Positions 43,576 to 62,246 of a stretch of DNA of 64,000 nucleotides are shown here, one piece after another. The translations under genes and the position numbers were made by a program. Source of the DNA: Halorarum halophilum. Lineage in GTDB: Archaea; Halobacteriota; Halobacteria; Halobacteriales; Haloferacaceae. Below the pieces are notes generated by a model. That model saw only the letters and a list, made by a program, of their open reading frames with translations, did not search any database and was not told where the DNA came from. Location: positions 62,001-126,000 of the forward strand of contig NZ_CP058530.1 of the NCBI RefSeq assembly GCF_013401515.1, read 5' to 3'. Each line of letters begins with the position of its first letter. Position 1 is the stretch's first letter.

Positions 43576-45102
43576 TCAGTGCCCCTCCAGACGCGTGGCG
43601 CGCACCTGTCCGGCCGTCTCCAGGACGTCGTCGAGCCAGGTCGGCAGGTCGGCCTCGTGGACCCGACGGCGCATCGTGCGCATCCGCGAGTGGCGTTCGC
43701 GTTCGTCCATCTCCAGCGCGCGCTCGATCGCGTCCGCGCCCGCGGCCGTGTCGTACGGGTCGAACTCGAGGGCACCGTCGGACAGTTCCTCGTAGGCGCC
43801 GGCGAGCGGGCTGAGCAGGAGGACGCCGTCGTCGTCCACCTGCGAGGCGACGTACTCCTTGGCGACGAGGTTCATCCCGTCGCGCAGCGGGCTGACGAGC
43901 GCCAGGTCGCTGAACCGGTAGATCCCGCACAGCGCGTCGTGGTCGTACATCTTCGTCGTGTAGACGATCGGCTGCCAGTCGTCGGTCCCGAAGCGCTCGT
44001 TCAGCCGATCGATCTCGTCCTCGATGCGGTCGCGGAGCCGCTGGTACGCGGGGACGCGCTCGCGGGTTCCACAGCCCTTCTGGACGTACGTGAGCTCGCC
44101 CCGGAGGGACGGGCGGGTCTCGAACAGGTGTTCCAGGATCTCCAGTCGCTGGGGGATCCCCTTCGTGTAGTCGAGGCGGTCGACGCCGAGCGCGAGCGTG
44201 ACGTCCTCGCCGATGCCGTGCTCGTGGCGGAATCGGGCCTCGAACATCCCGTCCGCGTCCTCGCTCTTCTGCCGGATGTCGTCCGCGTCGACGCCGAGGG
44301 GGAACGAGCGGACGGTCGTGACGTGGTCCTCGTAGTGGACCTCGCCGGCCCCCCAGTCCACGGTCGCCTCCGGGAGGAACTCCTCGACGCACTCCATGAA
44401 CAGCGTGCCGTAGCGCGGGAGGTGGAACCCGAGCAGGTCGTTGCCGAGAAGCCCGTCGAGCAGTTCCGTCCGCTGAGGGCAGATGCGGAACACGTCGGGG
44501 GCCGGCCACGGGATGTGGTAGAAGTGCATCAGGAACGCGTCGGGCTCGGCGGTCTTCACCATCCGGGGCGCGAGCGCGAAGTGGTAGTCCTGGAACCAGA
44601 CGGTCCCCCCGCCCTGGGCGTGTTCGAGCACGCCGTCCGCGAACCGCTGGTTCACCTCCCGGTAGTGACGCCAGTGGTCCCCCTCGAATCGGACCCGGCA
44701 TGTGTCGGTGTGGCACAGCGGCCACAGCGCCTGGTTCGCGTAGCCGTCGTAGTAGCCGCGAACCTCGTCCTCCGAGAGCCGGACCCGCTGGAGCGTGTAC
44801 TCGGGGTTCTCGGGCGGCACGGCCACCTGGTCGTCCTCGTCGGCGACCGCGAAGTCCGCCTCACCGTCCCCCCACGCGACCCAGGTGCCGTCGAGCCGTT
44901 GCATCACCGGGTCAAGCCCGGCCGTCAGCCCCCCGACCGGGTTGTCGACGGCGATGCTCCGACCCCCGTCCCCGTCGCTCCCGTCGCCCTCGTAGTGGTG
45001 CCTGTAGGGCTGCCTGTTGGAGACGAGGACGAGGTTCTCGCCGACCCCGTGGGTCTCCTGCCGCTGTTCGGTGCCCGATGCGGATTCCGAGTTCGAGTTC
45101 AT
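43576..45102 (-). CDS. otsA: Trehalose-6-phosphate synthase
   Basis: The 508-aa GT20 glycosyltransferase has the family blocks [14 protein letters not shown] at the N-terminus, [27 protein letters not shown] and [14 protein letters not shown]. It joins a nucleotide-activated glucose to glucose-6-phosphate. With otsB, 1 nt downstream, it makes trehalose, which would add an organic osmolyte to a salt-in lifestyle. The N-terminus has a Ser/Glu-rich extension of about 20 residues before the GT-B core. Confidence 0.95.
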
Positions 45103-45834
45103 TGATCCTGTTCGTCTAGTACGGCCTCACGACCCTATGTCCATTGCTGGCATATTCACCCTCGCCACCCCCGCCGTCCCCCGACGCCGACTGGGAGTTA
45201 CGGAGGCCCTCCACCGATCCCTTCGACTCGTGAGACGCCCTCGAACGGCGTCGTCCCGTCGTGGGCGGTGTCCCCGGGATCGATCGCACGGGGTCGTCGA
45301 CGCCGGGACGCCCGCGGTAACAGTCCACGTTGGAAGGACGAGGATGAGGGCGGTCGCGAGCGGACCGTCCACCGCGGGACCGCCGCGACGCCGAGCGTCG
45401 TCCGGTGGATCGGTCGTCCCGACCGTCCGTCCACGCTGTGAGGGGTGATGAAGCCGGCGTCGATGGGGTCTGGTCGGATTCGCCGGTATCCCGAGTGGCC
45501 TCCCCGGTCGGCGTCCGTGGGACGCGTTCGTCGAGAACCCCCTTCGGGACTGGAGTGACGACCGGCCCGTGTTACCACCACGAACCCTGAAGAGGCCGAA
45601 CCAGACCCGCTGTGTCCGGACCGACCGTTGCTACTCGTGCGTGCGACCGATCCTCGGTGTGGCGGCCCGTGCCAGCGCGTTGGCTTGCGAATGCAAGCCG
45701 AACTTGAGTGTGAGTTTATTTTCGCGCCCGTACGGTTAGTATATTTGTGTGGTCGACGACACGGCGTCCACACGTTCGTTCCCGCCCCCCGCGCCGCGAA
45801 CGGTTTTATGGGCAGGGGCCGAGAACGGCCTCCC
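45103..45834. other. Gene-free stretch of 732 bp
   Basis: No frame has an acidic haloarchaeal composition; the longest (minus strand, 45198-45836) is Arg/Ser-rich. Two things stand out near the right end: a hairpin GGCTTGC-GAAT-GCAAGCC (45682-45699), and T-rich runs at 45712-45722 and 45741-45751. These could mark a short non-coding transcript or a regulated promoter. Confidence 0.4.
45804..45809 (+). promoter_or_regulatory. TATA box of the GNAT gene
   Basis: TTTTAT lies about 28 nt before the ATG at 45835, supporting the start and a leaderless mRNA. Confidence 0.6.
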
Positions 45835-51131: not shown

Positions 51132-52364
51132 ATGGATATACGCGACGCCTGTAGCCACGAGTTCGAGTCGGTGAGCCCCGAGACGACCCTCTCGAAGGTG
51201 CGCGGCGCGTTCACCACCAACGAGCGGGCCCGGGTCGTCGTCGTCCTCGACGACGGCGACTTCGTGGGCGTTGTCACACGAAAACAGCTCCTCGCGTCCA
51301 AGCACTCGCCCGACGAGAAGGTCCGGTCGGTGATGGGGACCCCCCCGCGCGTGAGCCGGACGGAGGACGTCAGGGAGACGGCGCGGCTGTTCGTCGAGAG
51401 CGGCGTCGACCTGCTCCCGGTGTTCGAGGGGGACGAGTTCTTCGGCGTCGTCACCGTGCGGGACCTGCTCGAGCACGTCCAGGAGTTCCTCGACGCGCTC
51501 TCGGTCGAGGACGTCGCCACGCGCGAACTCGTCACCGCCGAGCCCGACACGACGCTGGGCGAGGTGATCAACGACATCCGCGAGTTCGGCATCTCCCGGC
51601 TCCCAGTCATCGACGAGGACGGCGACCCCGTCGGGATGGTGAGCGTCTACGACCTCGTCGGGTTCACGGTCCGCGAGATGCAGCGCCAGCAGGGCGGCTC
51701 CACGGAGGGGTTCGACGAGCACGGTGGTCGGGGGTCGCGTGACGACTACAACGCGACCGGCGGCTTCGGCGAGCGCGCCGGTTTCGCCGCGCGGATGCTC
51801 GACCTCCCGGCGCGGAACCTGATGAACACCCCCGCACACACCATCGAACCGGACCGCCTGCTCGACGATGCAGTCGAGCGGATGCTCGAGAACGACATCT
51901 CCTCGCTCGTCGTCGTCGACGGCGACGGCCGGCCGGCCGGCATCGTGACGACGACGGACGTGCTCCGCTCGCTGACGTGGACCGAGGAGGAGCACATGCC
52001 CGTCCGGGTGTTCGGCGTCGACCTCATGGACCTCCTCACGCGCGAGGAGATCGCCGACCGCGTCGAGGCGATCGAGGCGAAGTACGACGAGATGTCGGTG
52101 ATCGAAGCGCAGGTCACCTTCCAGAAACACCGCGAGAGCAACCGGGGGATGCCGCTCATCCGGGCGACCGTCCGACTGTTCACCGACCGCGGGACGCACG
52201 CCGGGACCGGTGAGGAGTACGGCGCGGAGGCGGCGTTCGACGGAGCCTGCGACCTGCTGGAGCGGAACGTCCTCGACGAGAAGGGTCGTAACAGCATCAA
52301 GCGGAAGCCCGAGGACGCTCGGGAACGGAACGAACGGCTGCTCGAGTGGTGGCTCGAGCCCTGA
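51132..52364 (+). CDS. Four-CBS-domain protein fused to an HPF-like domain
   Basis: The 410-aa protein has four CBS motifs (about residues 8-62, 70-122, 130-185 and 222-280), the third and fourth split by a Gly/Arg/Asp-rich linker. The C-terminal domain (about 300-395) reads AQVTFQKHRESNRGMPLIRA and later DGACDLLERNVLDEK, which resembles ribosome hibernation/modulation factors of the HPF/RaiA kind. The start at ATG 51132 follows domain edges. Nucleotide-sensing CBS domains tied to an HPF-like domain suggest control of translation by energy state; the ribosome link is inferred. Confidence 0.8.
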   Translation: MDIRDACSHEFESVSPETTLSKVRGAFTTNERARVVVVLDDGDFVGVVTRKQLLASKHSPDEKVRSVMGTPPRVSRTEDVRETARLFVESGVDLLPVFEGDEFFGVVTVRDLLEHVQEFLDALSVEDVATRELVTAEPDTTLGEVINDIREFGISRLPVIDEDGDPVGMVSVYDLVGFTVREMQRQQGGSTEGFDEHGGRGSRDDYNATGGFGERAGFAARMLDLPARNLMNTPAHTIEPDRLLDDAVERMLENDISSLVVVDGDGRPAGIVTTTDVLRSLTWTEEEHMPVRVFGVDLMDLLTREEIADRVEAIEAKYDEMSVIEAQVTFQKHRESNRGMPLIRATVRLFTDRGTHAGTGEEYGAEAAFDGACDLLERNVLDEKGRNSIKRKPEDARERNERLLEWWLEP

Positions 52365-53255: not shown

Positions 53256-53747
53256 ATGAGCCAGCACAATCCTGACACGGATCGAGGCCGGGAACAGCAG
53301 TGGAACCAGAGCGACCACCGGCAGCGCGGGCAGCCACGGGAACACGGTCAGCGAGGCGAGGAGCGACGGCAACGGTCCCAGCAGATGGAACAGCAGGGCG
53401 ACCAGCGACACCAGCAGCAGTGGAGAGGCCAGCAACAGGGGCAACAGTACGGTCAACAACAGGGCCAGCACGGAGGACAGGGAGGTCAGCGGTACGGCCA
53501 ACAGCAGCAGGGCCGGCACGGGCGACAGAGCGGCGGCGAGCGCCAGTCCGGGTTCGGACACCAGGGCCACGAACAGCAGCAACAGGGACACCAGCAGCAC
53601 GGACAGCAGCGACACCAGCAGGGCGGTCAGCGACGCGAGCGAGGGGAGGGACGACAGCCCGGCCAGGGTAACCGCCGGTACAACCAGCGCCGGCGAGGCG
53701 GGAACGAGCGGTCACCCCCGTCCGGGGACGACGGGAACCGACGATAA
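53256..53747 (+). CDS. Low-complexity Gln/Gly/Arg/His-rich protein
   Basis: The 163-aa protein has no folded domain that I can see. By my count about 48 residues are Gln, with Gly, Arg and His making up most of the rest (QQQGQQYGQQQGQHGGQGGQ; C-terminal RRRGG). It is basic, the opposite of normal haloarchaeal proteins, and resembles RGG/prion-like disordered proteins. The start at ATG 53256 begins MSQHNPDTDRGREQQW; the longer frame upstream differs in composition. Its function is unknown, but nucleic-acid binding or condensation is plausible. Confidence 0.7.
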   Translation: MSQHNPDTDRGREQQWNQSDHRQRGQPREHGQRGEERRQRSQQMEQQGDQRHQQQWRGQQQGQQYGQQQGQHGGQGGQRYGQQQQGRHGRQSGGERQSGFGHQGHEQQQQGHQQHGQQRHQQGGQRRERGEGRQPGQGNRRYNQRRRGGNERSPPSGDDGNRR

Positions 53748-53929
53748 GCGGGAATCCGTCCCGAGTAGGCTCCCTCAACGAACCCCCACGCGGCCGCCGC
53801 CGCCTTTTTCGGGTGCTCTACCGCAGGCAGACGGTCGGACGACGATTCCGCCACGTCGCGGCGTACGGTCACCCTGTTCGGGCTGGACACTTGGCTAACA
53901 AAGTGAATGGCGACCCGAGTGGCGAAGGC

Positions 53930-54214
53930 ATGGATTCGACCAGACAGAAGCAGGAAGGCGCGAAGGCGGCCAGACAGACGGGGATGGACCCGGCGATACT
54001 CGCATCGGCGGGCTCCGTGATGCTCTCCTGGTACTACTTCTTCGTCCAGGGTGACCGGCTGCGCGGGCTCTTCGTCGGGCTCTGGGCGCCGACCATCCTC
54101 GCGTTCGCGAGCTACTTCAAGCAAACGCGGATGAGCGACAGGATGCAGCGCGCGATGGGGAAGAGCGGCCTCTCGAACCGCGTCCAGCGGATCGTCGAGG
54201 AAGTCGGCCAGTAG
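53930..54214 (+). CDS. Small membrane protein (94 aa)
   Basis: The protein has a charged N-terminus (DSTRQKQEGAKAARQ), two membrane helices (ILASAGSVMLSWYYFFVQGD and LFVGLWAPTILAFASYF) and a basic C-terminal tail. The start at ATG 53930 is chosen because the frame upstream changes character. Its family is unknown. It converges on the Gln-rich CBS gene. Confidence 0.7.
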   Translation: MDSTRQKQEGAKAARQTGMDPAILASAGSVMLSWYYFFVQGDRLRGLFVGLWAPTILAFASYFKQTRMSDRMQRAMGKSGLSNRVQRIVEEVGQ

Positions 54215-54281
54215 AGTCGGACGGATCTGAAAAGAGAGCGGCGGTTCGACGATCGAAACTGACCGGGTCGCGACGGCCCGG

Positions 54282-55190
54282 TCAGTACCGCGTCGATTGC
54301 GACCTGATTATCCCGGTGGCTTTGTTGAGTTGCGACCCGAGCAGCACGAGGACGTCGTCGAGCGTGACGATCCCCTCGAGACCCCCCTCGTCGTCGACGA
54401 TGGGGAGCCGGCGCACGCTCGCCTCCTCCAGGGTGTTGATCGCGTCGAAGACGGTCGTCTCGGTCGTCGCGGTGACGAGGTCGGTGTCCATCACCTCCTG
54501 GACGGATCGCTCGGCGAGGTCCGCCGTCTCCTCGAGCGCGAGCGCGATGGCCCTGTCGGTGACGATGCCGACCGGCTCGTCGTCCTCGACGACGACGACG
54601 GAGCCGACCTCCTCCTCGGCCATCGTCCCGACGACCTCAGAGATCGGCTCGTCCGGCTGGACGGTGACGACGTCCGTCTGGACGACCTGCTCGAGCGTGA
54701 CCGGCTGGAGCTGTGACCGCTGCCCCCGTGCCTGCTGGCCCGTCGTCCCCGGGGGCTGCATCTGGGCGGGCTGCTGGGACTGCTGCTGGGGCTGGGCGCC
54801 CGACTGCTGGTACTGGTACGCCGCCCCTCCCTGCTGCTGACCGTAGCCTCCCTGACCCTGCTGACGCTGCTGGTCGTATCCCTGCTGACCGATTCCCTGC
54901 TGCTGGGGCGGTTGTCCGTAGCCCTGCTGGCTCGACCCCTGCTGTCCCTGCGGAGTCGTTCCCGCCTGTTGCTGCTGGGTCACTCCTCCCCATCGCTGCC
55001 GACCCCCTCCCTGCTGTCCCTGGTTGGGCTGCTGTTGGGGCTGACCCTGTGGAGGCTGCCCTCCCCGCTGTTCGTACCCCTGCTGGGTGCCCCGCTGTTG
55101 ACTCCCCTGCTGCCCCTGCTGGGGGGGCTGGGGTCGATAATACGATTCTCCCGGCCGGGCGTATGGATCGTCCTCTGGGTTTCCGTACAT
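54282..55190 (-). CDS. Two-CBS protein with a long prion-like Gln/Gly/Tyr-rich N-terminus
   Basis: In this 302-aa protein residues 1-160 are low complexity (SYYRPQPPQQGQQGSQQRG, QQGYGQPPQQQG, GGYGQQQGGAAYQYQQ), followed by two CBS motifs (about 165-222 and 230-290). The CBS half is ordinary and acidic; the N-terminus is almost free of charge. Only the Met at 55190 starts the frame, and the tract is continuous with the CBS part, so the fusion is real. It may be a nucleotide-responsive protein with a self-associating tail. Confidence 0.85.
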   Translation of the reverse strand: MYGNPEDDPYARPGESYYRPQPPQQGQQGSQQRGTQQGYEQRGGQPPQGQPQQQPNQGQQGGGRQRWGGVTQQQQAGTTPQGQQGSSQQGYGQPPQQQGIGQQGYDQQRQQGQGGYGQQQGGAAYQYQQSGAQPQQQSQQPAQMQPPGTTGQQARGQRSQLQPVTLEQVVQTDVVTVQPDEPISEVVGTMAEEEVGSVVVVEDDEPVGIVTDRAIALALEETADLAERSVQEVMDTDLVTATTETTVFDAINTLEEASVRRLPIVDDEGGLEGIVTLDDVLVLLGSQLNKATGIIRSQSTRY

Positions 55191-55388
55191 GGTGGTACCT
55201 GCTGGCCGACGCTGGTCGCGCTGGCGTGGAAGGAGTACGCGTGACGGTCAGATAAAACGGTGGGACGGGGTCCGACACACCGCCGGACGACGGCTCGAGC
55301 GGGGCCGAATCCGGCGGGAAGCAGCTCGTCGAACCGTGTTCGCTCGTAATCCATTTATAACAAAGGCCGCAGTTCCCGGTGGAAGGGT

Positions 55389-55748
55389 ATGGCCCTCATC
55401 GACTCGGTACTCGTGTTCGTGGTGAGCCTCTTCATCGGGGCGCTCGGGATCTACGTCGGCGCGCGCGTTTTCACCCACACCGACGACTACACGTACGCGA
55501 TCGTGACGGCGCTCATCGGCGCCATCGTGTGGGCCGCGATCGCGTTCCTGCTCGGGTGGATCCCGTTCCTCGGGCCGCTGCTCGCGCTCGTCGCGTACCT
55601 GGCCGTCATCAACTGGCGGTACCCCGGCGGCTGGGGGAGGGCCATCGGCATCGCGCTCGTCGCGTGGGTGTCCGTGCTCGTCATCCTGTACGTGCTGGCA
55701 CTGTTCGGTCTCGCCACCTTCGATGCGGTGGGAGTGCCCGGAGCCTGA
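55389..55748 (+). CDS. Small four-helix membrane protein
   Basis: The 119-aa protein has four closely spaced membrane helices (LIDSVLVFVVSLFIGALGIYV at the start, then three more). No family is recognised beyond a general resemblance to haloarchaeal small membrane proteins. It lies divergent from the Gln-rich CBS gene and converges on the HalOD1 gene 48 bp away. Confidence 0.72.
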   Translation: MALIDSVLVFVVSLFIGALGIYVGARVFTHTDDYTYAIVTALIGAIVWAAIAFLLGWIPFLGPLLALVAYLAVINWRYPGGWGRAIGIALVAWVSVLVILYVLALFGLATFDAVGVPGA

Positions 55749-55796
55749 CGGCTCGCGGGGCGAACGGAGCGGCCAGGAGAAGGGAGAGAGGGGACG

Positions 55797-56126
55797 CTAC
55801 GGCGGCGTGATGGCGATTTCGCCGCTGCTGTACACCGTCACCCGGTAGTCCTGCACGCTGAACGCCACGTGGCCCGGCGGCCGGGGTGTCCCGTCCGTCT
55901 TCGGGGCGAACAGCCGGTCCAGGGCGTCGGGGTCGACGCTGTCGTACAGCGGGAACTCCGTTCCCGTGACGTCCTCCCCCATCACGTCGGCGAGCGCGTG
56001 GACGATGGTCGTCGTCAGGTCGGCGGATCCGGTCGGGTCGTGGTGTACGTAGTACGTGTTCGGTTGCCGGGTTCGGGGTCGTTCGCAGGTCCGGGGAGGG
56101 TCGTTCGGTGGTTCGTCGATCATCAC
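55797..56126 (-). CDS. HalOD1 output-domain protein
   Basis: The 109-aa protein contains a stand-alone HalOD1 domain (about residues 35-105): LTTTIVHALADVMG, PLYDSVDPDALDRLF and the C-terminal GHVAFSVQDYRVTVYSSGE. The family is a haloarchaeal output module attached to response regulators or free-standing; its biochemical role is not settled. MM at the start leaves a 3-nt ambiguity. Confidence 0.85.
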   Translation of the reverse strand: MMIDEPPNDPPRTCERPRTRQPNTYYVHHDPTGSADLTTTIVHALADVMGEDVTGTEFPLYDSVDPDALDRLFAPKTDGTPRPPGHVAFSVQDYRVTVYSSGEIAITPP

Positions 56127-56284
56127 GGTTCAGTCACCGCTGTTTGGAGCCACTCCACACATCCGTCTTTCGAATGAGGTAGGAGTTCGTCGGGTTATCG
56201 CCGTTAGCGGGCGTCAGACTGCAAAACCTCGATGTCGGGCCGTCGTCGAGAGCCGACACCGACCCACCGCCCGCGCCGCCGCGT

Positions 56285-57163
56285 TCACCGGCTGCGCTCG
56301 CGGTCGTCCGCGGACCCGGACTGCCCGGAGGAGGTTCGCTGCCGGTACCGCCACACGTCCCCGTCGGCCCGGCTCACGCCGGGCAGCTCCGCGAACGCAT
56401 CGCGGACGCACTCGTCCCACCACGTGTCGGGCGTCGGGTAGTCCGCGGGGTGATCGTGGTACGCCGCCGCGGCGATGTCGGCCTCGGACGCCTCGCCCTC
56501 CCGCCGGAGGAACCCGAACGCGGCGCGCACGGCCTCGCGCTCGGACGGTTCGAGCTCGAGCGACTCGATGGCGTGCTTGACGCTCCCGTAGGGCTGGTGA
56601 CCGGGTCGCGCGAGCCGACGCGTCCCGTCCGCCCCCGGCGTGTTCACTTCGGCGGGACCGGCGTAGCGCCAGGGCTCGTCCGGATCGACGGGCGCGACCA
56701 CGCCCGGGAGGGCGGCCAGCGGGTCGCGGACGAGGTCGGACCACCACGCGTCGCCCGTCCCGTAGTCCGCCGGGTCCTCGCTGTAGATGGCGTCGACGAG
56801 TTCGTCGACGGTCGCCTCCCCCCAGTACCGGAGGAACGCGAACGCCCCCCTGACCGCCTCCGCCCCGTCGGGCCCGAGACCGAACATCCCCAGCACGGCC
56901 TCGATCTCGGGCGAGGTGTCGATCCGGTTGTCCCTCTCGCCGGCGGACGTGGCCACGACGCGCCGCCCGCTGTCGGTCCGCTGTACCCGTCCGTCGCCCG
57001 GGTCGGTGACGAGCCCGTTGTCCGCGAGGTCGGCCAGTCGTGCGTCGAGGTCGGCCCGTCCGACGTCGAGCTCCGCCGCGAGCTCCTCCGCGAGCTCCTC
57101 CGGGGAGCGGGCCTCGGTGCCGAGGGCGTTCAGTATCGTCCGGTCCGCTGCGTCGAGTTTCAT
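56285..57163 (-). CDS. Winged-HTH protein with a duplicated C-terminal domain
   Basis: The 292-aa protein has an N-terminal winged helix (about residues 5-70, ELAEELAAELDVGRADLDAR). Two related units follow, at about 90-165 and 205-280. Both share a helix (AVRGAFAFLRYWGEATVDEL / AVRAAFGFLRREGEASEADI), a DPADY/HPADY-TxDxWW motif and an ending WRY. I do not recognise the repeat as a named domain. The start at ATG 57163 was chosen over 57196 because it begins at the HTH. It looks like a haloarchaeal transcription factor with an internal duplication. Confidence 0.72.
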   Translation of the reverse strand: MKLDAADRTILNALGTEARSPEELAEELAAELDVGRADLDARLADLADNGLVTDPGDGRVQRTDSGRRVVATSAGERDNRIDTSPEIEAVLGMFGLGPDGAEAVRGAFAFLRYWGEATVDELVDAIYSEDPADYGTGDAWWSDLVRDPLAALPGVVAPVDPDEPWRYAGPAEVNTPGADGTRRLARPGHQPYGSVKHAIESLELEPSEREAVRAAFGFLRREGEASEADIAAAAYHDHPADYPTPDTWWDECVRDAFAELPGVSRADGDVWRYRQRTSSGQSGSADDRERSR

Positions 57164-57301
57164 CTCACACGGGGTGAGGCGGGGCTCCCCCTTCAACGTG
57201 GGCGTCCGAAGAAAGCGACCGGTCGGGCGTCGACCCGTCCGGCGGTCGGTCCGGATGGACCGTCGGCCGAGGGTCGACGAGCCGTCGGTCGGTGTCGGTC
57301 G

Positions 57302-58063
57302 TCAGTCGTCGTCGTCGGTCGGCTCGCCGCCGTCCGCCTGCGGGGCGCCGCCGGGCGCGGGAGTCCCCGAGGACGCGCGGTGCATCCAGCGGTCGATGTT
57401 GTTCGAGACGTAGGTGTGTCCGCCCCAGCCGAACGCGATGCCGGCGCCGAGCGCGAGGGCGGCTGCCAGGCCCCACGCGACCGCCTCCGCGAACGTGTAG
57501 AGGATGGTGACGTCGATCCCCATCGTGTCCAGCCCGATGACGATGGCGATGAAGTAGAGGAACATCCGGGTGCCGGTCGCGAACCAGGACGTGTACGCCG
57601 TCTGGGTCGCCGCGCGGGTCCGCGTGATCACGTCCCCGATGAAGTCGGCGACGACGAACCCGATGAGGATGACCAGCAGGCCGGCGATGAACGCCGGGAG
57701 GTACGAGACGGCCGTCCCGATCCACTGCGAGAGCAGCGGGATGGCGAGGACGTTCGCGGCCGCCAGCACCGAGAGGGCGACCACGAACCACTTCGTGATC
57801 GACCCGAACGTCTGGGAGACGGCCGACTCCGTCCCCCCGAACGTTCGACCGAGCGGCGTATCGAGGACCATCCGGTCGAACTCGACGCTGTCGGCGAGTC
57901 GTTGAACGACCTTCCCCGCGGCGACGCCGAGGATCCACCCCACGGCGAGGATGACCAGGGCGCCGACCAGTCGCGGCAGGAAGGCGACGATCTGGGCGAT
58001 GGTCTCCTGGAGGAACTCGGGAATCTGTACCTGTATCACGGCTGACGCTGCTGTTGGCTGCAT
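57302..58063 (-). CDS. Mechanosensitive-channel-type membrane protein (conserved TM-helix family)
   Basis: The 253-aa protein has four or five membrane helices (PRLVGALVILAVGWILGVAAG, FIAGLLVILIGFVVADFIGD and AAALALGAGIAFGWG). Each of two repeats resembles the conserved TM helix found in some small-conductance MscS-type proteins (TM_helix family). It lacks the cytoplasmic MscS beta domain. The start at ATG 58063 begins just before the first amphipathic helix. It is divergent from the Dps-type gene with a palindrome between them. Confidence 0.78.
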   Translation of the reverse strand: MQPTAASAVIQVQIPEFLQETIAQIVAFLPRLVGALVILAVGWILGVAAGKVVQRLADSVEFDRMVLDTPLGRTFGGTESAVSQTFGSITKWFVVALSVLAAANVLAIPLLSQWIGTAVSYLPAFIAGLLVILIGFVVADFIGDVITRTRAATQTAYTSWFATGTRMFLYFIAIVIGLDTMGIDVTILYTFAEAVAWGLAAALALGAGIAFGWGGHTYVSNNIDRWMHRASSGTPAPGGAPQADGGEPTDDDD

Positions 58064-58131
58064 CTGTATACCTCGCCCCGTTTTCAGTTGTCGTAGCACT
58101 AAGGAGCGACCTTGCAGACTCCGGAAGCTTA

Positions 58132-58156
58132 AGTACCGAAACGAGGTTTCGTTACT
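58132..58156. promoter_or_regulatory. Near-perfect palindrome between the channel-like and Dps-type genes
   Basis: AGTAC-CGAAAC-GAG-GTTTCG-TTACT: the inner 6-bp arms (58137-58142, 58146-58151) are perfect and four of the next five outer pairs match. It lies 69-93 bp upstream of the minus-strand gene and about 120-145 bp upstream of the Dps-type ATG. Confidence 0.5.
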
Positions 58157-58274
58157 AATTCGCCGCTGTCAGCGCCTGTGTGAGACGTTCAGCCGTTCCC
58201 GGGAAAGTTCACGTGGGGCACACAACATACAAGCAAATCTGCGTGGTTGGTGGTCACGCGGGAGGACGACGACC

Positions 58275-59375
58275 ATGAGCCAGCAACAGCATCCACCACG
58301 ACCGACGGAGAACCGGCAGCAACAGCAACAGCCGATCGAAGGGGGGCAGTCGACGCAACAGCAGCCGATGGAGGGGCAACAGTCCATGCAGGGGCAGGGG
58401 ATGGAGCCGCAACAGCAATCGACCCAGCAACGGCCGATGGAACCACAACAGCAGCAGTTCGGCATGCAGCAGCAGCCCGGCCAGCAACAGATGGGTCAGC
58501 AGCCGGGTCAGGGGCAACAGCTGTCCGGACACGAGTTCCCGACGAAGACGCATCTCCCCCCGGAGACGCGGCGCGGGTCGATCGAACTCCTCAACCAGGC
58601 GCTCGTCGACACGACGGACCTGCTGACTCAGGTCAAGTTCGCCCACTGGAACGTCCGAGGCGAGAACTTCTTCCAGCTCCACGAGCTGTTCGAGGAGCTC
58701 GCGGAGGAACTGGAGGAGCACGCCGACGAGATCGCCGAGCGGGCGACCTCCCTCGGCGGGCAGGCGATGGCCACGACCCGCATCGCGGCGGCGACCTCGC
58801 GTCTCCCCGAGATGCGGACCGACGCGATCCGGGGAACCGAGTACGTGGAACTCGTCGCCGAGCGGGTGGCGATCCACGACGCCAACCTGTCGGCGGCACT
58901 CCAGGCGGCGACAGCGAACGAGGACCTCGACACGGCCGACCTGCTCAACGAGATCTCCCGGGAGGTCGGCAGGTACCGGTGGTTCCTGGAGGCTCACTTC
59001 ATCACCCAGCCGACCGGAAGCGAGGGCTCCGTGGGCCAACAGCCGGGCATCGGAGACCAGCAGCCCGAGATGAGCGGTCAGCAACCCCGAACGAGCAGTC
59101 AACAGCCCGAGATGGGAGGACAGCAGTTCGGCATGAGCGAACAGCAACCGGGTATGGGAGGTTCCCAGCCCGGTATGGGAGCATCGCAGTCAGGCATGGG
59201 AGAACCGCAGCCCGGCATAGGAGAATCGCAATCCGGTATGGGCGGTCAGCAGTCGACCCAGCAACAGCCGCCGACGGGCGTTCAGCAGATGCAACCGCCG
59301 TCGATGGACGCGCAGGTCGGCGGCGAACAGCAGCAGCCCCGGCAGCAGTCGGATCACCAGCGGTCCTCCTACTGA
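58275..59375 (+). CDS. Dps-type ferroxidase with long Gln-rich disordered tails
   Basis: In this 366-aa protein the ferritin-like Dps domain occupies about residues 92-245. It contains KFAHWNVRG, FFQLHELFEE and HADEIAER, giving the expected ferroxidase residues His124, His136, Asp151 and Glu155. It should oxidise and store iron and protect DNA against peroxide. Unusual are a Gln-rich N-terminal tail (1-90) and a C-terminal tail (250-366) with ten heptads of the type xQQPGMG. Normal Dps proteins are about 150-190 aa. The start is ATG 58275 (MSQQQHPPRP); the longer frame is not credible. Confidence 0.9.
   Translation: MSQQQHPPRPTENRQQQQQPIEGGQSTQQQPMEGQQSMQGQGMEPQQQSTQQRPMEPQQQQFGMQQQPGQQQMGQQPGQGQQLSGHEFPTKTHLPPETRRGSIELLNQALVDTTDLLTQVKFAHWNVRGENFFQLHELFEELAEELEEHADEIAERATSLGGQAMATTRIAAATSRLPEMRTDAIRGTEYVELVAERVAIHDANLSAALQAATANEDLDTADLLNEISREVGRYRWFLEAHFITQPTGSEGSVGQQPGIGDQQPEMSGQQPRTSSQQPEMGGQQFGMSEQQPGMGGSQPGMGASQSGMGEPQPGIGESQSGMGGQQSTQQQPPTGVQQMQPPSMDAQVGGEQQQPRQQSDHQRSSY
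59034..59243 (+). repeat. Ten 21-bp tandem repeats inside the Dps-type gene
   Basis: The DNA encodes residues 254-323 as ten in-frame heptads (GQQPGIG, DQQPEMS, GQQPRTS, SQQPEMG, GQQFGMS, EQQPGMG, GSQPGMG, ASQSGMG, EPQPGIG, ESQSGMG). The units differ in sequence and codons, so the array is old or diverging rather than freshly expanded. Confidence 0.8.
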
Positions 59376-59491: not shown

Positions 59492-59920
59492 TCAGCGCTC
59501 CAGCCCCGACTCGTCCTCGCGTTCGGGGGCGTCGGGGTCCGCGTCCCGCCGTCCCGTCGCTCGCCCCTCGTCCCACGTCGGCTCCTCGGCGGCGAGTTCC
59601 TCGTCGCGACCCTCCAGCCGGCCCTCCTCGAACTCCGAGACCAGCGCCTCGTACGCCTCGTCGGGGTCCTCGAAGCTCCTGTCGAGGCGCCCGAAGGCGC
59701 TCCCGAGCGACTCCGTCTCGTTTGGCAGGTCGATGGGATCGTCCGCGTAGTAGGCGCTGAGGTCCTCGCTCGACACCGGGTACTGGTGCGTGCCGAGGTC
59801 CTCCTCGACCGCCTCCATCGTCCGCTCGACCGAGTCGGCGCGTTCGCTCTGCCGTCGCTCGGCGGCGTCCTGGACGCTATCGCGCGTGTTCTCGGGCCCT
59901 TCGGAGTCGTCAGGTGCCAT
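59492..59920 (-). CDS. DUF5789-like haloarchaeal protein
   Basis: The 142-aa acidic protein has the pattern LGTHQYPVSSEDLSAYYAD followed by LPNETESLGSAFGRL, which matches the haloarchaeal DUF5789 family. The C-terminus is charged and probably disordered. The function is unknown. It is divergent from the rubredoxin-like gene at 60067. Confidence 0.78.
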   Translation of the reverse strand: MAPDDSEGPENTRDSVQDAAERRQSERADSVERTMEAVEEDLGTHQYPVSSEDLSAYYADDPIDLPNETESLGSAFGRLDRSFEDPDEAYEALVSEFEEGRLEGRDEELAAEEPTWDEGRATGRRDADPDAPEREDESGLER

Positions 59921-60066
59921 GGGGGGTGTCGGGCGCGGCGCCCCAAAATATCCACGGCCGTCGGCGGCCGGTGCCTAGATGGATAGTGTGAATTTCGGGG
60001 GACGTGACCGCCCTGGAGGTCGAATCGACGGATAGACCTTTGAGGTCGGCGTCCGAACGGTTTCCT

Positions 60067-60402
60067 ATGAGTGGACGTGGTGAGACACCCGAGGAGGAGG
60101 GCGAGGACGTCGAACCGTCGGCCCCGAAGATCTCGTTCGGACAGACGCTGTACACCGAGGACGGCGAGCCGGTCGGGAAGGTCCGGGGCGTCGAGGAGGG
60201 CGGGGTGTTCGTGAGCATCCGCGAGGGCGCCGAGTCGTTCAGCATCGAACACGCCCGGTCGGGGCAGGCGTTCGGCGAGGCGGAGCTGATGTGGCGCTGT
60301 ACCGAGTGCGGCGAGATGGGAAGGATCGACGACGATCTCCCGGATAACTGCCCCAACTGCAACGCCGAGCGCGAGGCGCTCATGTACTGGACCGAGGACT
60401 GA
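60067..60402 (+). CDS. Rubredoxin-like zinc-ribbon protein (DUF7130 type)
   Basis: The 111-aa protein has a small beta-rich part (SFGQTLYTEDGEPVGKVRGV) and a C-terminal CTECGEMG...CPNCNAE pair binding one metal. It resembles the haloarchaeal DUF7130 proteins. The start at ATG 60067 is preceded by a TATA-like ACCTTTGAGG near 60036-60045. It may bind zinc or iron; no partner is evident. Confidence 0.78.
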   Translation: MSGRGETPEEEGEDVEPSAPKISFGQTLYTEDGEPVGKVRGVEEGGVFVSIREGAESFSIEHARSGQAFGEAELMWRCTECGEMGRIDDDLPDNCPNCNAEREALMYWTED

Positions 60403-60466: not shown

Positions 60467-60547
60467 ATGGTATTCGGGCTCGGCCCCACCCGCTCGAGCG
60501 GGATGGGCGCCGGCCCGGTAGGAAGGAGGTACAACAATGAGCACTGA
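60467..60547 (+). CDS. Possible leader ORF overlapping the NuoCD start
   Basis: The frame ATG...TGA encodes 26 residues (MVFGLGPTRSSGMGAGPVGR then six more) and ends 11 nt inside the next gene. It covers that gene's Shine-Dalgarno site, so ribosomes reading it could influence nuoCD translation. No start signal of its own is seen; it may be chance. Confidence 0.25.
   Translation: MVFGLGPTRSSGMGAGPVGRRYNNEH
60524..60530 (+). promoter_or_regulatory. Strong Shine-Dalgarno site of the NuoCD gene
   Basis: AGGAGGT with a 6-nt spacer before ATG 60537 matches the archaeal 16S rRNA tail exactly. Nearly all other genes here lack such a site and look leaderless, so this message probably has a real 5' leader. 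Confidence 0.7.
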
Positions 60548-62246
60548 CGAGAGTACGTCCGAACAGTCCGAACGGGCGGAAGGGACGCGACAGGAACGGG
60601 TCGGGGCCGGGGGCGTCGACTACGACGAACTGGAGGAGCTCCTCGGCGAACACGCCATCGGTCGCGAGAGCCACGTGAACGCCGAGGCGTTCGTCGTGCG
60701 CCCCGACGAGGTGCAGGACGCGCTGTCCCTGCTGCGCGACGAGGCTGGCTTCGACCACCTCTCCTGTCTCACCGCCCAGGAGTACGGCGACCGCTACGAG
60801 TCCATCTACCACCTGACGTCGTACGACGACCGCACGCGCGAGGTCGGCGTCGTCGTCCCGGCCGCGAAGGACGACCCGGTGAGCGAGAGCGCAGTCCCGG
60901 TGTACGAGACGGCGAACTGGCACGAGCGGGAGGCGTACGACCTCGTCGGTATCGAGTACGAGGGGCACCCCGACCTCCGGCGCATCCTGCTCCCAGAGAC
61001 GTGGCAGGGCCACCCACTCGCGCTGGACTACGACCAGGACCGACCGCAGGTCGTCTCCCTCCGCGAGCACAAGAACCCCCTCGCCGGGGACACCCGCGGG
61101 CAGGGAGAGGGGGAAGAGGGGTCCGACACGATGTTCCTGAATATCGGGCCGCACCACCCGGCGACCCACGGCGTGCTCCACCTGAAGACGACGCTGGACG
61201 GCGAACAGGTCGCCGACGTGGAGCCGGACATCGGCTACCTCCACCGCTGCGAGGAGCAGATGGCACAGAACGGCACGTACCGCCACCAGATCATCCCCTA
61301 CGCGGACCGGTGGGACTACACCTCGAACCTGCCGAACGAGTGGGCGGTCGCGCGGGCAATCGAGGACCTCGCCGACATCGACGTGCCGGAGTACGCCGAG
61401 GTGCTCCGGACGATGTCGGTCGAACTCGGTCGGATGCTCGGCCACTTCCTCGCGGTGGGGACGTTCGCGCTGGACGTGTACGGCGACTTCACGGCCATCT
61501 TCATGTACGCCATCCAGGACCGCGAGCGGATCCAGAACATCCTGGAGGACCTGACGGGCCAGCGGATGATGTTCTACTACTTCCGGGTCGGCGGCGTCGC
61601 GTGGGACGTCCCCGAGCCGCGCGAGGAGTTCTTCGAGAAGGTCCGCGACTTCCTCGAGGAGCTCCCCGAGGCGATCCAGGAGTACTACGACCTGACGACG
61701 AACAACGAGATCCTCCAGATGCGGACGGTCGACACGGGCCGCATCTCGGCCGAGACGGCCAAGGACTACGGCTGTACCGGCCCGGTGGCTCGCGCGTCGG
61801 GCGTCGACTACGACCTGCGCCGGGACGACCCGTACGGCTACTACGAGAACCTCGACTGGAACGTCGTCACCGAGGAGGCCGGCGACAACTACGCCCGACT
61901 CGCCGTCCGCCTGCGGGAGATCGAGGAGTCGGCCCGCATCGTCGAGCAGTGTCTCGACCTGCTGGAGGACTGGCCCGAGGACGACCGGACGCTCCAGGCG
62001 AACGTTCCCCGGACGCTGAAACCGGAGTCCGACACGGAGATCTATCGCGCGGTCGAGATCGCCAAGGGCGAACTCGGCGTCTACATCCGCTCGGACGGCA
62101 CCGACAGCCCCGCGCGGTTCAAGATCCGGAGCCCGTGTTTCCACAACCTCTCGGCGCTGCCCGAGATGTCGGTCGGCGAGTACGTGCCCGACCTCGTCGC
62201 GGCGCTGGGTAGCCTCGACATCGTCCTCGGGAGCGTCGATCGGTGA
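60537..62246 (+). CDS. NADH dehydrogenase-like complex subunit NuoCD (fused)
   Basis: In this 569-aa protein residues about 30-185 match NuoC (HLSCLTAQEYGDRYESIYHL, NWHEREAYDLVGIEYEGHPD) and about 195-569 match NuoD (NIGPHHPATHGVLHLKTTL). The His of ATHGVL and the Tyr of DRWDYTS fit the quinone-site pair known from the bacterial 49-kDa subunit. Haloarchaea normally have a fused nuoCD inside a nuo operon; here it stands alone, so it may be a second copy or a part of a different complex. The start is supported by an AGGAGGT Shine-Dalgarno. Confidence 0.9.
   Translation: MSTDESTSEQSERAEGTRQERVGAGGVDYDELEELLGEHAIGRESHVNAEAFVVRPDEVQDALSLLRDEAGFDHLSCLTAQEYGDRYESIYHLTSYDDRTREVGVVVPAAKDDPVSESAVPVYETANWHEREAYDLVGIEYEGHPDLRRILLPETWQGHPLALDYDQDRPQVVSLREHKNPLAGDTRGQGEGEEGSDTMFLNIGPHHPATHGVLHLKTTLDGEQVADVEPDIGYLHRCEEQMAQNGTYRHQIIPYADRWDYTSNLPNEWAVARAIEDLADIDVPEYAEVLRTMSVELGRMLGHFLAVGTFALDVYGDFTAIFMYAIQDRERIQNILEDLTGQRMMFYYFRVGGVAWDVPEPREEFFEKVRDFLEELPEAIQEYYDLTTNNEILQMRTVDTGRISAETAKDYGCTGPVARASGVDYDLRRDDPYGYYENLDWNVVTEEAGDNYARLAVRLREIEESARIVEQCLDLLEDWPEDDRTLQANVPRTLKPESDTEIYRAVEIAKGELGVYIRSDGTDSPARFKIRSPCFHNLSALPEMSVGEYVPDLVAALGSLDIVLGSVDR

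Follow-up and report, generated by a model that had tools for sequence, protein, structure and literature searches.

Long low-complexity tracts rich in glutamine (Gln) and glycine (Gly), carried by otherwise folded proteins, are found in the eukaryotic FUS family and in RGG proteins, and hydrophilins and late embryogenesis abundant (LEA)-like proteins have chains that are Gly-rich, hydrophilic and disordered by composition. Tracts that recall both are encoded on a plasmid of a haloarchaeon placed in Halobaculum. The window analysed here is a stretch of 64,000 nt, part of a 263,745-bp plasmid contig (C2) in a genome of 4.28 Mb. Within 6.1 kb it has three Gln-rich genes, which encode a small basic protein (termed Qrg), a CBS-domain protein and a Dps protein. 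Similar neutral tails are present on several unrelated stress and storage proteins in other haloarchaeal families, where the genes are also linked, and the tails are tentatively interpreted as a shared, charge-neutral module of self-association that co-assembles these proteins. The three genes and their tails are as follows.

53256–53747, plus strand: Qrg, a tail-only Gln/Gly/Arg protein of 163 aa with an isoelectric point of 11.6, a putative scaffold (from composition and a homologue in Halobaculum salinum)
54282–55190, minus strand: Gln-tailed CBS protein, 302 aa (from Pfam and a class-wide clade)
54717–55190, minus strand: Gln/Gly/Pro/Tyr-rich N-terminal region of the CBS protein, residues 1–158 (from composition)
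58275–59375, plus strand: Gln-tailed Dps, 366 aa (PF00210, NF006975 above cut-off, PDB Dps matches)
58275–58526, plus strand: N-terminal Gln-rich tail of Dps, 43% Gln (from composition; unstructured in the model, with a predicted local distance difference test score, pLDDT, of 40–49)
59013–59375, plus strand: C-terminal Gln/Gly/Ser/Pro/Met tail of Dps, with degenerate 21-bp (7-residue) repeats (from composition and the model)

Glutamine-rich tracts of the plasmid genes

An earlier note on this DNA had pointed to a Gln-rich trio within about 6 kb and had described such tracts as rare in acidic haloarchaeal proteomes. Composition and Pfam searches confirm all three genes at 53256–59375. Qrg contains 29% Gln, 20% Gly and 17% Arg, the N-terminal region of the CBS protein 36% Gln, 21% Gly, 11% Pro and 6% Tyr, and the C-terminal tail of Dps 26% Gln. 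The rarity is also borne out. In the entire contig, genuinely Gln-rich windows (26–28 Gln per 60 residues) are confined to these three open reading frames (ORFs), and 0 of 3206 six-frame ORFs from the rest of the plasmid and 400 kb of sampled chromosome reach 15 Gln in 60 residues. Runs of four Gln codons reveal few further plausible genes in the whole genome: one encoding a secreted protein, one with a prefoldin-like C-terminus and one with the run at the extreme C-terminus of its product. One exception is a chromosomal Gln-tailed protein of the Csp copper-storage type (C1:811,357–812,162), the Gln tract of which is interrupted by an in-frame TAG; in the sister genome G001 the gene is open.

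The Gln tracts are truly coding. Those of the CBS protein and Dps read in frame with folded domains (CBS and ferritin, respectively). Qrg has a 21-residue C-terminal block in common with its counterpart in H. salinum, and the third codon position accounts for 9 of 9 nucleotide differences in this block. An artefact of antisense or wrong-frame reading is rejected on the same grounds, the Qrg block evolving synonymously. Chance clustering is likewise rejected: for three sites drawn at random on the plasmid, the probability of lying within 6.1 kb is about 0.0016, and to this are added the Gln-window scan of the plasmid and the co-occurrence of Gln-tailed genes across genomes described below.

The core of Dps is well supported by sequence matches (PF00210, E=5e-22; NCBIfam NF006975, 154.5 bits against a cut-off of 114; PDB Dps, E=4e-26, the closest PDB match being 3ge4). 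As in known Dps proteins, the core is ferritin-like, and by alignment the ferroxidase-ligand places are filled (AHWN, LHELFE and HADEIAER) with His/His/Glu/Asp/Glu; in island members Glu stands where E. coli has Asp. In contrast to known Dps, the protein has Gln-rich tails of 84 and 120 residues and no Lys-rich N-terminal tail, and it scores low with the haloarchaeal DpsA model (61 against a cut-off of 170). Within the C-terminal tail, positions 59058–59254 form a degenerate 21-bp repeat that encodes a 7-residue unit of the type GMGxxQP.

Relatives and linkage of the tailed genes

The nearest named relatives of the window plasmid are plasmids of H. salinum (239 kb) and Halobaculum sp. XH14 (196 kb). 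H. salinum has Qrg and CBS genes in the same convergent order and no Dps; XH14 keeps the tailed CBS alone, without Qrg or Dps. The Qrg relative in H. salinum was found by reading the neighbourhood, and tblastn with Qrg alone gave no match, as expected because low-complexity sequence is removed by the BLAST filter. A tblastn search against plasmids revealed islands in Haloarcula rara, Halorientalis sp. IM1011 and Haloarcula marina. In the Haloarcula and Halorientalis regions, Gln-rich tails are also found on a phasin-like protein, a small protein and a copper-storage protein of the Csp type, and tail-only Gln proteins are present as well. CBS, Dps and tail-only proteins are found together in Haloarcula rara and in the genomes designated G201, G235 and G333. 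Several Gln-tailed genes are present within tens of kilobases in G201, G235, G333, G321 and others, on contigs of 112–370 kb; the G235 region was read across the contig-end join, the contig being assumed circular.

With respect to the synteny that the earlier note had envisaged, the outcome is divided. Its three genes do not form a fixed set, given that the exact trio is absent from the sister plasmids. The view that the cluster is more than an accident of one genome is upheld by the co-occurrence of Gln-tailed CBS, Dps and tail-only proteins on plasmids of other families, in a stress-gene setting. The tracts are far from being common in the host and unlinked, which the note had named among the findings that would speak against it.

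The comparison set for the class consists of 292 Halobacteria genomes in 77 genera. The phasin-like family has 11 matches there, seven with Gln-rich tails, and all seven genomes with a Gln-tailed phasin also have a Gln-tailed CBS (7/7, P=5e-11). The corresponding figures are 7/9 for Gln-tailed Csp (P=2e-9), a list that is a lower bound because the best loci only were read, and 4/9 for Gln-tailed Dps (P=3e-4). Counted by hand at the genus level, with Gln-tailed CBS in 7 of 77 genera, the association is 5/5 for phasin (P about 1e-6), 4/5 for Csp (1e-4) and 3/5 for Dps (4e-3). In Haloarcula rara, IM1011, G201, G333, G321 and G277, the Gln-tailed Csp gene has a tail-only Gln gene beside it in the same orientation. 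Paralogues with little tail are found elsewhere: chromosomal PhaP beside phaC, short Csp and short CBS.

Dps relatives were missed when the tails were included in the query and recovered with the core only. There are 11 matches in the class, nine of which have Gln-rich tails. Stand-alone Gln-tailed Dps genes in G328, G258, G155, G150 and G250 have no other Gln-rich gene within ∼10 kb, with just 6.8 kb of contig around the gene in G250.

The CBS protein has two CBS domains (PF00571, two stretches, 93 bits). Forms with a long N-terminal region are found in 13 of the 292 genomes and make up a near-single clade. These are the top 13 matches, and the region is Gln-rich in 11 to 12 of them; those of G165 and G227 have less Gln and more Arg/Gly. 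Matches that rank lower are mostly ∼150 residues and are without the N-terminal region. When genome contigs were scanned with the whole CBS protein, distant or low-complexity matches only were obtained. On a tree of 40 CBS pairs the Gln-tail label needs two changes, compared with 12.3 in shuffles, and the tail may conceivably have had a single origin. In its own family the Gln-tailed CBS is confined to Halobaculum (3 of 170 genomes), and it is scattered across other families, which suggests horizontal spread. In G165, G183 and G227, which belong to one genus, the CBS gene is near genes that resemble the RNA polymerase large subunit and has no other Gln-tailed genes nearby.

The earlier note had proposed a nucleotide-sensing scaffold, a role that would fall to this protein. 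The CBS pair is present and the ligand-motif Asp of CBS2 is kept. The equivalent in CBS1, an Asp three residues after Thr, is found in 0 of 14 Gln-tailed members scored, compared with 14 of 21 others (P=6e-5). A role as a plain nucleotide sensor is doubtful on these grounds; from the ligand chemistry of CBS domains, one adenylate site at most would be expected, if adenylates bind.

Tail regions and tail-only proteins from many genomes (38 proteins) contain 15–51% Gln, the highest value being reached in tail-only proteins. Gly and Pro are variable, Asn is low, V, I, L, F, W and C together mostly make up ≤8%, and net charge is mostly between -0.06 and +0.08 per residue. The cores of the window CBS and Dps are acidic, unlike their near-neutral tails. 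The feature kept across genomes is the neutral Gln/Gly/Pro composition, and tail sequences diverge fast. The tails are prion-like in being Gln-rich tracts of low charge and low hydrophobicity; a conserved pair of Tyr and Arg stickers is not seen. Tyr reaches 5–6% in Halobaculum CBS tails only and is 0–2% elsewhere, and the Arg content of scaffold proteins varies from 1 to 17% across genomes. Thus, the Arg/Tyr pairing of FUS type that had been suggested from the window is rejected as a general rule.

The stress-gene neighbourhood

When ORFs from 15 regions were clustered, HalOD1, mechanosensitive-channel-like, DUF5789, rubredoxin-like, YihY/BrkB, trehalose-6-phosphate synthase and 119-residue membrane proteins emerged as stress-type neighbours that the regions share. 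The neighbours annotated in the window are listed here.

43576–45126, minus strand: trehalose-6-phosphate synthase (GT20; OtsA), in the outer stress neighbourhood (PF00982, E=9e-119)
51132–52364, plus strand: predicted HibA-type ribosome-hibernation factor with four CBS stretches and an S30AE/HPF-like C-terminus, neighbour of Qrg (PDB, Pfam)
53930–54214, plus strand: small putative membrane protein between Qrg and CBS (from reading of the sequence; no Pfam family)
55389–55748, plus strand: 119-aa membrane protein adjoining CBS, kept in six islands (ORF clustering)
55797–56126, minus strand: HalOD1 output-domain protein, conserved neighbour (PF18545; ORF clustering)
57302–58063, minus strand: mechanosensitive-channel-like membrane protein, conserved neighbour (PF05552; ORF clustering)
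59492–59920, minus strand: DUF5789 protein, conserved neighbour (Pfam; ORF clustering)
60004–60402, plus strand: DUF7130/rubredoxin-like protein, conserved neighbour (Pfam; ORF clustering)

A paper of 2026 described the HibA family of ribosome-hibernation factors (PMC13324472). By sequence, the gene upstream of Qrg (51132–52364) is identified as a member: it has a full-length match to PDB 9l96_a (E=9e-96) and a match to 9sr9_H (E=4e-35), the latter of 392 residues, which is the length stated for HibA. Four Pfam CBS stretches are present, and PF02482 is just under the cut-off (E=1.5e-4). The window gene thus has the four-CBS and HPF/RaiA-like architecture of HibA. HibA has no Gln tail, whereas the Gln-tailed CBS protein lacks an HPF domain and contains just one CBS pair. 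The islands of H. salinum, G235 and G333 also have HibA-like genes. In the genome of the window, a second such gene lies on the chromosome (C1:3,567,958–3,569,031), and in G235 (contig C4) and G333 (contig C15) a His/Gln-rich protein of 384–388 residues directly adjoins the HibA-like gene.

A fused NuoC-NuoD-like gene (60537–62246, plus strand) is found beside the stress genes of the window, and plasmids of Halomarina, Haladaptatus and Halomicrococcus carry comparable genes. Four of the islands (loci L036 and L034; genomes G235 and G333) have genes close by that encode RdfA and an archaea-specific SMC-related protein.

Shared tails, alternatives and known systems

The self-association module is tentatively preferred because one neutral tail type recurs on several unrelated oligomeric stress and storage proteins and is accompanied by tail-only partners. 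As families, Dps proteins are known to form 12-mers, CBS proteins dimers, Csp proteins tetramers and phasins oligomers. As each tailed family is homo-oligomeric, many tails would be displayed per particle. The tails are envisaged to adhere to each other and to Qrg, or to the tail-only Gln proteins that correspond to it, through uncharged contacts of Gln and backbone. Being uncharged, these contacts would persist even at the molar KCl concentrations that screen charge-driven attraction. The outcome may be a dormancy or stress body with iron/DNA protection by Dps, tuned by the CBS pair; in other genomes the body would also hold copper storage (Csp) and the coat protein of polyhydroxyalkanoate (PHA) granules (phasin). 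Perhaps the basic Qrg recruits nucleic acid and possibly hibernating ribosomes, the latter being considered because HibA adjoins Qrg. In its most extended form, the proposal is of a horizontally spread, plasmid-encoded dormancy body, in which an uncharged Gln-tail code recruits Dps, Csp, phasin, CBS and perhaps hibernating ribosomes into a salt-resistant condensate on tail-only Gln scaffolds; taken as a whole, this is unlikely.

Several observations weigh against the module. Gln-tailed Dps and Csp are also found solitary on chromosomes, and the Gln-tailed CBS is solitary in one genus; the tails are therefore useful without the full set. Sister species are without Dps and, in one case, without Qrg. 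The tails of different proteins are not significantly more alike within genomes than across them (P=0.08–0.18 for the 38 proteins), which counts against a matched-tail code. Structure models were from AlphaFold with a single sequence and no alignment, which is weak evidence: that of Dps shows a four-helix core (pLDDT mostly 70–82) and structureless tails (38–49), and that of CBS is uninformative.

The main rival is protection of the hydrophilin type without co-assembly, which is possible, if somewhat unlikely. The tails would be water-binding entropic bristles that provide solubility and a shield in desiccation or low-salt shock, and the genes would cluster only from all being stress genes on one mobile island. 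The Gly/Gln-rich, hydrophilic and neutral tails agree with this, as do the nearby genes for trehalose synthesis, a mechanosensitive-type channel and a hibernation factor, the solitary Gln-tailed genes and the lack of matching of tails within genomes. Left unexplained, however, are the tail-only Gln proteins retained beside Gln-tailed Csp and the restriction of tails to a few oligomeric families rather than to stress proteins at large.

A storage-granule coat, in which Dps, Csp and CBS would be anchored by their tails to PHA granules via the Gln-tailed phasin as a joint store of carbon, iron and copper, is improbable. An island Gln-tailed phasin query matches a chromosomal protein that precedes phaE- and phaC-like genes (E about 1e-7), and the link of Gln-tailed phasin to Gln-tailed CBS is complete in the genomes above. 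The island protein has no match to the Pfam phasin model, and the class-wide search shows that its family is absent from the genome of the window; it is also missing from several genomes with Gln-tailed CBS, which counts against a coat. Neutral expansion, by slippage of CAG/CAA on plasmids that lengthens linkers without function, is quite improbable: the degenerate repeats in the C-terminal tail of Dps and the quick turnover of tail sequences speak for it, but the tracts are more than simple repeats (CAG is broken up by CAA in 29/172 compared with 1/48 in neighbouring genes, P=0.007), composition is maintained across four families, the Qrg block is under purifying selection and the tracts are limited to few families. 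A nitrogen reserve held in Gln-rich chains for revival would suit the extreme Gln content of tail-only proteins and is nonetheless very improbable, as free amino acids are a cheaper store, tails on Dps or CBS are left unexplained and no dedicated protease is seen.

If the self-association module is correct, it would represent a natural multi-component condensate in an archaeon whose cytoplasm is nearly saturated with salt, conditions under which the electrostatic rules invoked for condensates should fail. Whether uncharged Gln tails can be a recruiting code could then be tested with simple genetics. In dormant haloarchaea, which are known to survive for long periods, the module would join ribosome hibernation, carbon granules and the storage of iron and copper. 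Should the tails do no more than protect, the recurring fusion of Gln tails to unrelated oligomers is still an undescribed adaptation; no earlier description of the system was found in the open-access literature, subscription journals being outside the search.

With regard to known systems, the likeness to FUS and RGG proteins extends in Halobaculum to a Tyr-containing tract and an Arg/Gly/Gln partner. The haloarchaeal tails differ in having almost no Asn and, outside Halobaculum, little Tyr; an RNA-recognition domain is absent, tails are carried in parallel by several oligomeric enzymes and storage proteins, and the cytoplasm is of high salt. The Gln-tailed phasin of the islands is homologous to the protein encoded beside haloarchaeal phaE-phaC-like genes, and differs from PhaP phasins of the carbonosome in its long Gln/Pro-rich C-terminal tail and its location on plasmids. 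Like Csp copper-storage proteins, the island protein is a Cys-rich four-helix protein, with TIGR04401 matches below cut-off (E=1.5e-8), but it has Gln-rich tails and a partner gene that encodes a tail-only Gln protein. The resemblance to hydrophilins and LEA-like proteins is one of composition; the haloarchaeal tails differ in being fused to oligomeric folded domains.

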